From positions 1 through 64,000 of the forward strand of contig JAGWPU010000077.1 in assembly GCA_028870355.1 (NCBI GenBank): DNA of 64,000 bases, in the 5' to 3' direction. How positions within the stretch are numbered: position 1 is the stretch's first letter; every line of letters starts with the position of its first letter. The notes under the pieces are model-generated. The model was not told the origin of the DNA. It saw nothing but the letters and a program-made list of their open reading frames with translations, and did no database searches. This stretch comes from Gammaproteobacteria bacterium (GTDB taxonomy: Bacteria > Pseudomonadota > Gammaproteobacteria > Steroidobacterales > Steroidobacteraceae). The position numbers were made by a program, and so were the translations under genes. Positions 5,379 through 24,700 of this stretch are shown here, piece by piece.

Positions 5379-7400
5379 TCAGGGGGTCGTTCGGTCGTCG
5401 CGCCGCGACCGTCGACCGCGGCTCTGCGCGGCGGGCGCGGCCTCTTTCGGCGCGGGCAACTCGACGACCGCGCGCAGATTCCGGTAGGCGGCGGTCTTGT
5501 GCGGGAGCGCCATCGCCTCGACGAAGTGCTGCTGGAACCGCGGCTCGATCGCCGTCTCCATCTTCTCGATCCGCCGGACCAGGGTCTCGATCACGCCGCG
5601 CGAGCTCTGATCGAGCAGGGCGATCCGCGCACCGGTACCCGCCGCATTGCCGGCGGAGCTCACCTGCTTCAGGTCGCAGTCCGGGATCATCCCGAGGATC
5701 ATCGCGTACTTCACGTCGATGTGGCTGCCGAAGGCGCCCGCGAGCCGGATCCGATCGACATGATCGATACCGAGCCGCTCCATCAGCAGCGCGATGCCGG
5801 CGTAGAGCGCGGCCTTCGCGAGCTGGATCGCCCGAACGTCGTTCTGCGTGATCTTGAGCTCGAGCGCGCCCTGGTGCAGCACGTACGCGAAGGTCCGGCC
5901 ATTCGCGACGATGCGCGGCGACCGGTCCGCGAGACGGCCATCGACCACCCCGTCCTGGTTGATGATCCCCGCGAGGTACATCTCCGCGATCGCCTCGATG
6001 ATCCCGGACCCGCAGACGCCCGTGACCCCGGTCGCTTCGGCGGCGGCGGCGAAACCGGGCTGGTCGGACCATAGATCGGTACCGATGATCTTGAAGCGCG
6101 GCTCGAGCGTCTGCGGATCGATGCGGATTCGCTCGATCGCGCCCGGCGCCGCACGCTGGCCGCAACTGATCTGGGCGCCCTCGAACGCCGGGCCGGTCGG
6201 ACTGGAGCACGCGACCAGGCGATCACGATTGCCGAGGACGATTTCGGCGTTGGTGCCGACGTCGACCAGCAGCGTCATCTCCTCGCCGAGATCGGGCCGC
6301 TCGGCGAGCACCATCCCGGCGGCATCGGCACCGACGTGACCGGCGATGCACGGCAGCACGTAGATCCGCGCGTTGCGGTTCACCTTCAGGTCGATTTCGC
6401 TCGCCCACATCGTGGTCGACATGTCCGTCGCGAGCGCGAACGGTGCGCCGCCGAGCTCGACGGGGTCGATCCCGAGCAACAGGTGATGCATGATCGGATT
6501 GCCGACGAACGTCGCCTCGAGAATGTCCTCGGGCGAGAGTCCCACGCTCTTCGTCACGTCGGCGGCGAGCGCCGACAGCGCCTCGCGGACCGCCGCGGTC
6601 ATCTGCGCCGCACCGCCCGGATTCATCATCGAATAGGACACGCGGCTCATCAGATCCTCGCCGAAGCGGATCTGCGGATTCATCACGCCGGCGCTCGCGA
6701 CGACATCGCCGGTCTGCAGGTCGCACAGATGCGCCGCGATCGTCGTCGAGCCGACGTCGACCGCGAGGCCATAGGCCTTTTCGTGCAGGCCAGGCCACAC
6801 GCCGAGGATCCGGGTGCCCGCGTGGACGGCGACCGTCACGGCCCAGCCGCCCGCCCGCAGCGCGGGCTGCACCGCCTGCAGGACCCGCAGATCCGAGGAC
6901 AGGTCGCGCAGCCCCCATTCCTTCTCGAGCGCGTCGTACAGCCGGCGCAGGTCGCCGGACGGATCGTGCATGTCCGGCTCGCGCACCTGCACGTAGTGCA
7001 GGCGCACGACCGGATCGAGCTCGATCGAGCGCACCTCGGCCTCCTTGCGGACGACCTGCCGATGCACCTGGCTGCTCGCCGGCACGTCGATCACGACGTC
7101 GGCCTCGATCCTCGCCGAACACGACAGGCGCCGTCCTTCGGCGAGCGACATGCGCTTCGCGTAGCGCCGCTCCGGTTCGCTGAACGGCGTCAGGCTCTCT
7201 TGCGAGGAGGTGATGCCGTGCTTCGCGAATTCGCCTTCGGCCACGAGCACCTGACAGCGGCCGCAGAGTCCGCGGCCGCCGCACACCGAATCGATGTCCA
7301 CGCCGAGGGCTCGCGCCGCCTGCAGCACCGGGGTGCCGATCGGGAAACGGCCCCGCTTGCCCGAGGGCATGAAGACGATCAGCGGATCCGGCGTGGTCAT
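5379..7400 (-). CDS. Reductive activator of corrinoid protein (RACo/RamA-type, 2Fe-2S ferredoxin plus ASKHA ATPase)
   Basis: 673 residues from ATG 7400. The N-terminal plant-type ferredoxin domain has cluster cysteines at 40, 46, 49 and 94 (CGGRGLCGRC and RLSCSAR). A linker leads into an ASKHA-type ATPase (DUF4445), with phosphate-binding motifs AVDVGSTTIAAHL, LLVDVGTNAEIVL and GVCGSGIIEAI. Proteins of this kind use ATP and an electron from the Fe-S cluster to return accidentally oxidised Co(II) corrinoid to the active Co(I) state. Its partner here should be the corrinoid protein at 10913-11623. It lies 16 bp downstream of the methyl-H4folate methyltransferase gene in the same operon. The C-terminal ~25 residues are Arg/Ala-rich and probably disordered. 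Confidence 0.93.
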   Translation of the reverse strand: MTTPDPLIVFMPSGKRGRFPIGTPVLQAARALGVDIDSVCGGRGLCGRCQVLVAEGEFAKHGITSSQESLTPFSEPERRYAKRMSLAEGRRLSCSARIEADVVIDVPASSQVHRQVVRKEAEVRSIELDPVVRLHYVQVREPDMHDPSGDLRRLYDALEKEWGLRDLSSDLRVLQAVQPALRAGGWAVTVAVHAGTRILGVWPGLHEKAYGLAVDVGSTTIAAHLCDLQTGDVVASAGVMNPQIRFGEDLMSRVSYSMMNPGGAAQMTAAVREALSALAADVTKSVGLSPEDILEATFVGNPIMHHLLLGIDPVELGGAPFALATDMSTTMWASEIDLKVNRNARIYVLPCIAGHVGADAAGMVLAERPDLGEEMTLLVDVGTNAEIVLGNRDRLVACSSPTGPAFEGAQISCGQRAAPGAIERIRIDPQTLEPRFKIIGTDLWSDQPGFAAAAEATGVTGVCGSGIIEAIAEMYLAGIINQDGVVDGRLADRSPRIVANGRTFAYVLHQGALELKITQNDVRAIQLAKAALYAGIALLMERLGIDHVDRIRLAGAFGSHIDVKYAMILGMIPDCDLKQVSSAGNAAGTGARIALLDQSSRGVIETLVRRIEKMETAIEPRFQQHFVEAMALPHKTAAYRNLRAVVELPAPKEAAPAAQSRGRRSRRDDRTTP

Positions 7401-7416
7401 GCGATGTCGTTCCGGT

Positions 7417-8337
7417 TCAGGCCGACGGGCGGCGCCGCAGCCCACCCTCGCGGCGGCCACGGGCCGCGCCCTCGCCCGCCGCGCCCGGCGGCGGCACTTC
7501 GCGGTACTTGCGGATCCAGCGCGCGCAGTCCGGATCGTGGCCCATCATCACGTCGGCCCCCATGCACGCGCGCACGACGTCCGCGTGCAGCGGATTCGCG
7601 ATTGCCGAGGTCATCCCGGCGCCGATCGCCATCGTGAGGAACGCGCTGTTGATCCCGTCGCGATTCGGGAGGCCGAAGCTCACGTTCGACGCGCCGCAGG
7701 AGGTGTTGACCTTGAGCTCGGTCCGAAGCCGATGCACCAGCCGCAGCACCTGCACGCCGGCGGAATTGATCGCACCGATCGGCATCACGAGCGGATCGAC
7801 GACGACGTCGCTCGCGGGAATCCCATGATCCATCGCGCGCTCGACGATCTTCTTCGCCACCGCGAAACGCACGTCCGGATCCTCGGAGATCCCGGTCTCG
7901 TCGTTCGAGATCGCGATCACCGCGGCCCCGTATTTCTTCACCAGGGGCAACACGGCTTCGAGCCGCTCTTCTTCGCCGGTCACCGAATTCACGAGCGCCT
8001 TGCCCTGGTAGACCTTCAGACCCGCTTCGAGCGCCGCGACGATCGAGGAATCGATCGACAGCGGAACGTCGGTGATCGACTGGACGAGCTTGACCGCCTT
8101 CGCGAGGATCGCCGGCTCGTCGGCGAGCGGGATCCCGGCGTTGACGTCGAGCATGTGCGCACCCGCCTCGACCTGGGCGCGCGCGTCGGCCTCCACGCGG
8201 CTGAAGTCGCCGGCCGCCATCTCCGCGGCGAGGATCTTGCGTCCCGTCGGGTTGATCCGCTCGCCGATGATCACGAACGGGCGTTCGAAGCCGATCACCA
8301 CTTCCTTGGTCGCGGAACTCACTACGGTATCTGTCAT
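7417..8337 (-). CDS. Methyltetrahydrofolate:corrinoid methyltransferase (MtgA/AcsE/MtrH-like, pterin-binding TIM barrel)
   Basis: 306 residues forming a pterin-binding TIM barrel like AcsE and the MetH folate domain. Motifs include FVIIGERINPTGRK at the N-terminus, HMLDVNAGIP, VPLSIDSS, VNSVTGEEE, AAVIAISNDETGI and NTSCGASNVSFGLPNR. It should take the methyl group from the methylated corrinoid protein and pass it to tetrahydrofolate, giving 5-methyl-H4folate. The last ~25 residues (Gly/Arg-rich) are outside the family core. An AGGATGA ribosome site precedes the start. Neighbouring MetF/MetV-like genes would then oxidise the product. Confidence 0.92.
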   Translation of the reverse strand: MTDTVVSSATKEVVIGFERPFVIIGERINPTGRKILAAEMAAGDFSRVEADARAQVEAGAHMLDVNAGIPLADEPAILAKAVKLVQSITDVPLSIDSSIVAALEAGLKVYQGKALVNSVTGEEERLEAVLPLVKKYGAAVIAISNDETGISEDPDVRFAVAKKIVERAMDHGIPASDVVVDPLVMPIGAINSAGVQVLRLVHRLRTELKVNTSCGASNVSFGLPNRDGINSAFLTMAIGAGMTSAIANPLHADVVRACMGADVMMGHDPDCARWIRKYREVPPPGAAGEGAARGRREGGLRRRPSA

Positions 8338-24392: not shown

Positions 24393-24700
24393 TGGTGGGC
24401 CCGGTCGGACTCGAACCGACGACCAAGGGATTCACTTTGCCCCACCGTTTCCGGCGGGAGTGGACTATCTCTTCACCCGCGTGGGGTGCGGGACGCTCTC
24501 GCCTGTCATTAAGCGCGACTCAAGCGCTCAGGTAGTCTCTGCACCTTCCGGCGGTGTACCGCCGGCTTGGCTCAGGGTTGCCATCGGCCATACCGTTAAG
24601 GGTTCCCTGAATTCATCCCGTCCACTTCGCGCCTCGCGACGCGAAGGCACCTCCTTACCGTCGATGAGTCCCCTGCTCTAACCGACTGAGCTACAGGCCC
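24393..24700 (-). tRNA. tRNA-Ile(CAU) interrupted by a group I intron
   Basis: The 5' exon is 24700-24664 (37 nt) and the 3' exon 24432-24393 (40 nt, encoding CCA). Joined, they fold into a 77-nt tRNA: acceptor GGGCCTG/CGGGCCC with one wobble, D stem GCTC/GAGC, anticodon stem GGGGA/TCCCT, loop CTCATAA, and T arm GTCGG-TTCGAGT-CCGAC. Anticodon CAU in this tRNA body is the isoleucine-2 type, whose C34 becomes lysidine so it reads AUA, rather than a methionine tRNA. The intron enters directly after U36. A TAGAAT -10-like box lies about 10 bases upstream of the 5' end. Confidence 0.95.
24433..24663 (-). ncRNA. Group I self-splicing intron (IC3-like) in the tRNA-Ile anticodon loop
   Basis: 231 nt. 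The 5' exon ends in CAU and the intron ends in G, the two required bases. GTG at 24650-24648 can act as the internal guide, pairing with CAU as in the Azoarcus ribozyme. P2 is CTTCGCG/CGCGAAG (24646-24640/24631-24625). P4 is CAGGG/CCCTG (24609-24605/24577-24573), inside the conserved AATTCAGGG and AACCCTGAGCCAAGCC blocks. P7 is GACTA/TAGTC (24537-24533/24467-24463), inside AGGTGCAGAGACTA and AGAGATAGTCCA. P9 is CCCGCCG-GAAA-CGGTGGG (24458-24441). No homing endonuclease is encoded. The RNA should splice itself using guanosine. Confidence 0.93.

Follow-up and report, generated by a model that had tools for sequence, protein, structure and literature searches.

The group I intron in the pre-tRNA-Ile(CAU) of Azoarcus sp. 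BH72, which belongs to class IC3, is a model ribozyme for which crystal structures exist (PMC3984707). The same tRNA is interrupted in Acidovorax and Burkholderia, whose tRNA-Ile2 group I introns are reported in the tRNAscan-SE 2.0 paper with their structural class not stated (PMC8450103), and a 2014 review records bacterial tRNA introns in cyanobacteria and in a few alpha- and betaproteobacteria (PMC4033280). The classes that matter here are told apart by the stretch between P7 and P3: in IC3 introns, such as those of Azoarcus and of cyanobacterial tRNA-Leu, P3 follows P7 without a P7.1/P7.2 insert, whereas IA introns (IA1, IA2 and IA3) carry P7.1 or P7.1/P7.2 between the two (PMC4498298, PMC1995217). 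In a published comparison, the IA2 td ribozyme is like the two IC3 ribozymes except for its P7.1/7.2 extension between P7 and P3 (PMC4498298), and in the Twort intron P7.1/P7.2 encircle the guanosine pocket (PMC1995217). A split tRNA-Ile gene is therefore already known as a kind, and what is unexpected at the locus described here, of which we have established the anatomy, conservation, covariation, distribution and class of the core, is the ribozyme class found at a known site. In the openly accessible literature we came across no account of gammaproteobacterial tRNA-Ile introns of the P7.1 type, most subscription papers lying outside our search.

The gene spans positions 24393-24700, on the minus strand, of the window, by which we mean the whole stretch of 64,000 nucleotides that was analysed. 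It is a tRNA-Ile(CAU) gene broken in the anticodon loop after U36, so that a 5' exon of 37 nt ending in the anticodon CAU (24664-24700) is followed by a group I intron of 231 nt (24433-24663) and by a 3' exon of 40 nt with an encoded CCA (24393-24432). The intron begins at C24663 and ends at G24433, between a 5' exon that ends in ...ACUCAU and a 3' exon that starts with AAUCCC, and its ends were set by the folding of the exons and by 34 relatives. Once joined, the exons form a 77-nt cloverleaf that ARAGORN reads as a CAU tRNA. In a cmscan of the whole window, RF00028 (group I intron) was the sole match above its gathering score, reaching 68.2 bits (E 3.5e-15; gathering score 50) over the full length of the model. 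This covariance search confirms that the first-pass annotation, which had reported a group I intron in the anticodon loop of tRNA-Ile(CAU), described something real, and its coordinates, strand, intron length, exon ends and the fold of the joined exons all proved correct on reading the sequence and running ARAGORN on the joined exons. When introns were allowed, ARAGORN called a tRNA-Gln(CUG) with the splice site one base off; we rejected these boundaries because only the ones given above agree with an exon ending in U36, with the U.G pair and with the G at the intron end. Run without introns on the whole window, the same program returned zero tRNAs, an example of how intron-blind annotation tools overlook such split genes. 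With a length of 231 nt, the intron leaves no room for a homing endonuclease gene.

Regarding the identity of the host tRNA, the source genome is a draft (162 contigs, 92% complete) in which tRNAs were counted by an Rfam search and by ARAGORN on the loci. It contains two intact CAU tRNAs in separate genes, which by their sequence are the elongator and the initiator tRNA-Met, and a search of the genome for an intact GACTCATAATC was negative. The split gene yields a CAU cloverleaf distinct from both the initiator and the elongator tRNA-Met and, as the intact CAU tRNAs are both of the Met type and there is no intact GACTCATAATC, it can be assigned to tRNA-Ile(CAU). A second, intact tRNA-Ile(CAU), which the annotation had named as grounds for abandoning its reading, was not found in the draft genome, but since several expected tRNAs are missing from this draft, the absence taken alone is weak evidence. 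The N-terminal part of TilS, which converts C34 to lysidine, was located where contig C110 ends, with accA next to it, and the AUA codon is rare in the putative genes of the window (12 of 17,949 codons).

A second group I match of the same genome (29.8 bits), on contig C59, was considered as a tRNA-Ile intron and discarded, as it interrupts 23S rRNA and retains remains of a homing endonuclease. This weak match (L002:1-600, equivalent to G000:C59:1-600) lies in the 3' portion of the 23S rRNA gene, and a broken LAGLIDADG-like reading frame begins in it (MEDHYIAGFVDGEGSFHIAFQ..). Another 23S rRNA gene (L199, G029:C17) has two group I introns (169-396 and 443-697) about 46 nt apart, placed around the helix with ACGGTCCTAAGGT.

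The helices of the ribozyme were evaluated by aligning 34 introns with short exon flanks and counting an explicit model of 72 pairs. In this set 96.6% of the cells are paired, compared to 34-42% in a control in which the partners were slid, and both-side changes occur in 28 pairs, against a mean of 11.4 in shuffled alignments, of which none (0/500) was as high. Compensatory changes are found in P2, P6a, P7.1a, P9 and P9.0; P1, P4 and P7 hardly vary within the set: across the families represented, P1, P7 and all but a small part of P4 are without change. The internal guide sequence GGUG (24648-24651; this and all the following features are on the minus strand) pairs with the exon CAU and intron C1 to form P1 (24663-24666) in 34/34 sequences, and all 34 also have the exon-end U in a U.G pair with the guide and the intron-end G; the U and G ends had been proposed together with a GUG guide opposite CAU. 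Furthermore, the guide tracks its host: in a relative found in tRNA-Lys(CUU), GAG replaces GUG opposite the CUU exon, and the next P1 pair changes from C-G to A-U. This relative of the window intron (L036:1420-1721, G051:C27) occupies the same insertion position in its own host gene.

P2 (24625-24646) has 9 bp, all nine of which change on both sides, and is closed by a GNRA loop (GCGA). P3 is formed by CGGGAUG (24614-24620) and CGUCCCG (24489-24495), and its pairs are replaced by other complementary ones between intron families, which have, for example, CGGGAUG/CGUCCCG, GUGGAUG/CGUCCAC or GCGGGUG/CGCCCGC. P4 and P5 occupy 24571-24611, with the strands of P4 at 24605-24611 (5') and 24571-24577 (3'); P4 is paired in 100% of the cells and the proximal P5 is weak (61.8%). 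The P6a hairpin (24548-24565) covaries in 4 of its 7 pairs, and P7, which carries the guanosine site, pairs GACUA (24533-24537) with UAGUC (24463-24467) in 34/34 sequences. P8 (24474-24488) is short, with 5 bp, and variable in length among relatives. Finally, P9.0 (CACU/AGUG) and P9, which ends in a GAAA loop, extend over 24433-24462 down to the terminal G 24433, with covariation in 2 of 4 and 6 of 7 pairs, respectively. P2, P4, P7 and P9 and the GNRA loop on P9 had all been predicted, and the P3 and P8 pairings, whose absence had been put forward as fatal to the idea, are present in 99.2% and 98.8% of the cells of the 34 sequences. The conserved core of P3, P4, P6, P7 and P8, together with the match to the family model, is that of a group I intron.

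Catalysis, splicing in vivo, lysidine formation and essentiality are properties that we infer. Following established group I chemistry, the transcript would fold into the ribozyme, with P1 (exon CAU and guide GUG) presenting the U.G splice site; the guanosine bound in P7 would attack after U36, and the freed exon U would attack after the terminal G24433, joining the exons to a 77-nt tRNA whose C34 TilS would modify, allowing it to decode AUA. This ribozyme has its P7.1/P7.1a domain between P7 and P3, and its kin are the P7.1-bearing (IA-like) introns of bacteria and phages and not the Azoarcus-type IC3 introns found at the same site in betaproteobacteria.

It is in the class of the ribozyme that our results depart from the first-pass annotation, which had assigned the intron to IC3. 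Between P7 and P3 there is a conserved segment of 37 nt (24496-24532) with a hairpin (24502-24532) composed of P7.1 (CCUG/CAGG) and P7.1a (AGCGC/GCGCU) and an asymmetric UAAUGA loop; it is paired in 100% of the cells, and 3 of the 5 P7.1a pairs change on both sides among the 34 sequences. The intron thus lacks the direct succession of P7 and P3 that characterizes IC3 and has, with covariation, the insert that characterizes IA. Moreover, in a tree of the core (141 columns, with the P7.1 insert removed) a branch divides introns with P7.1 from those without it, with support of 96/94, and of 97/92 when phages were added. The window intron falls with the P7.1 introns, including the IA-type ones of phages, on the opposite side from the betaproteobacterial introns of Azoarcus type. 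Outside the insert, the two sides are near-fixed for different states at six core positions, located in P3/J3/4, the P4 pair, J6/7 and J8/7, and the six Azoarcus-type introns have the IC3 state at every one of them. The nearest phage relatives of the window intron in BLAST searches also carry P7.1. Taken together, the hairpin, the core tree, the core differences and the phage relatives with P7.1 do not support the IC3 label, and IA-like, which rests on P7.1 and the core tree, appears to be the best one for this intron.

The Azoarcus intron has in common with it the host tRNA, the GUG guide, the small size and the GNRA loops on P2 and P9. The insertion point after CAU is also the same, as the annotation had stated, judged from the Azoarcus-type introns of Propionivibrio, Gulbenkiania and Polynucleobacter. 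However, the Azoarcus-type intron has no P7.1, its P3 comes directly after P7 (GACGGCACC), its J3/4 and J8/7 are different and its P8 is long. The comparison with Azoarcus was made through these relatives. Because of the P7.1 insert and the differing core nucleotides, it is not right to regard the window intron as another lineage of the Azoarcus ribozyme, as had been suggested: the site is the same, but the ribozyme class is different. In Comamonadaceae/Burkholderiales examples (L089 and L091) we found a P7.1 hairpin of a different sequence type from that of the window intron.

Among phage introns of the IA2 type, T4 td and the terminase intron of Vibrio phage 11895-B1 (L210) share with the window intron the P7.1 between P7 and P3 and the core clade, and L210 even has the same P7.1 motif, CCUGAG..CUUAAUAACAGG. 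Both of them are, however, in protein genes, and L210 has an extra P7.2, whereas the window intron has no P7.2 and a simple P9. A 2014 review places all phage group I introns in protein genes. We observed an unannotated tRNA(CAU) of Klebsiella phage Muenster (L213:2413-2760; MT708547.1, about 302,817-303,164) with a P7.1-type intron after CAU (RF00028, 104.1 bits), and a phage tRNA(CAU) in OU509535.1 (L212:328-628) that is also split after CAU by a P7.1-type intron (89.9 bits); these split phage genes belong to a tRNA cluster that has HNH endonucleases close by. The Muenster gene is like that of the window in resembling tRNA-Ile2 and in being interrupted after CAU by a P7.1-type intron that begins C...GGUG, but its P7.1 sequence is GGUG..CACC and it is not sister to the window clade in the core tree. 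A P7.1-type intron after CAU was also seen on the minus strand of L107 (about 7400-7800 of the reverse complement), in a gene that resembles an initiator tRNA-Met and that ARAGORN miscalled as tRNA-Pyl; L169, from an uncultured Clostridium, groups with it in the core tree. In Candidatus Accumulibacter (L142:3580-3900), a tRNA-Ile(CAU)-like gene has an IC3-type intron that seems to lie before the anticodon (after U33).

Of 60 genomes of relatives, the source genome included, 31 have tRNA-Ile(CAU) interrupted by the same intron type: 21 of the 23 genomes of the genus and 10 from outside it, spread over further genera and families; Rhodanobacter fulvus, Dyella mobilis, Luteimonas aestuarii and Lysobacter daejeonensis are among the carriers elsewhere. 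Intact tRNA-Ile(CAU) genes were found in 18 of the 60 genomes, none of which has the intron, and all 32 intron-bearing genomes, which comprise these 31 and one (G033) with another intron type, are without an intact gene by exact pattern. Within the genus, 18 loci have the same hrpB-like helicase gene next to the tRNA, so that the split gene there seems to have been inherited in position. The exact motif GGTGCAGAGACTACCTGRG was present in 23 of 369 genomes sampled from the whole class, and BLAST of the intron against plasmids and against E. coli gave no match. That intron and intact gene exclude each other among relatives supports the suggestion of the first-pass annotation that the cell may depend on the ribozyme, but AUA is rare.

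All these data make it very probable that the split tRNA-Ile(CAU) is spliced by a P7.1-bearing (IA-like) ribozyme, with the joined tRNA decoding AUA, and that this ribozyme is not an IC3 intron of the Azoarcus type. It could be argued that the window intron is an Azoarcus-family IC3 intron in which the hairpin between P7 and P3 is a secondary gain, as both are in the same tRNA, at the same insertion nucleotide, and have similar P7 and J6/7 sequences, and AU tests do not reject a clade joining the window and Azoarcus types (p 0.29). We consider this unlikely because the core columns still divide the two types after removal of P7.1, because the Azoarcus-type introns lie on the IC3 side at all six near-fixed core differences, and because the P7.1 motif is common to the phage terminase-gene intron. 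An inactive intron within a tRNA pseudogene, with AUA decoded otherwise or hardly needed, would agree with the scarcity of this codon, and another copy of the gene could be unassembled given the tRNA genes missing from the draft. Nevertheless, the catalytic helices are all intact, P1, P7 and almost the whole of P4 show the invariance described above, the exons are highly conserved, the intron-bearing genomes have no intact gene and TilS is present, so that this explanation seems very improbable, even more so than the gain of a hairpin by an IC3 intron.

Having favored an IA-like ribozyme for the window, we return to the site itself, since tRNA-Ile introns occur on both sides of the branch that separates P7.1 from no-P7.1 introns in the core tree. 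In fact, one genome of the same family (G033) has an intron of Azoarcus type at this site of tRNA-Ile(CAU): it (L201) lacks P7.1 and clusters with the introns that split tRNA-Ile in Propionivibrio, Gulbenkiania and Polynucleobacter (98/94), and the AU test rejects its placement inside the window clade (p 0.029). The 73 exon nucleotides of its host tRNA are identical to those of another member of the family, G031 (L054), whose intron is of the P7.1 type, and no neighbor gene shared by the two loci was found within about 5 kb. One family thus shows three states of the site: intact, with an IA-like intron and with an IC3 intron. An independent arrival of both classes at the U36 site is likely, though not proven; AU tests reject neither a single clade of tRNA-Ile introns (p 0.23) nor one of the two main types (p 0.29). 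More tentatively, it is possible, if somewhat doubtful, that the site after U36, which one family shows in intact, IA-like and IC3 states, has been colonized more than once by unrelated ribozymes (IA-like and IC3), and that split tRNA(CAU) genes of phages serve as a vehicle for such introns. Azoarcus-type and P7.1-type introns that share one insertion nucleotide, their exons and their guide constitute a natural controlled comparison, which bears on the support that P7.1 gives to the guanosine site and to folding, and in a family that holds both intron types as well as intact genes, intron gain, loss and replacement are traceable.
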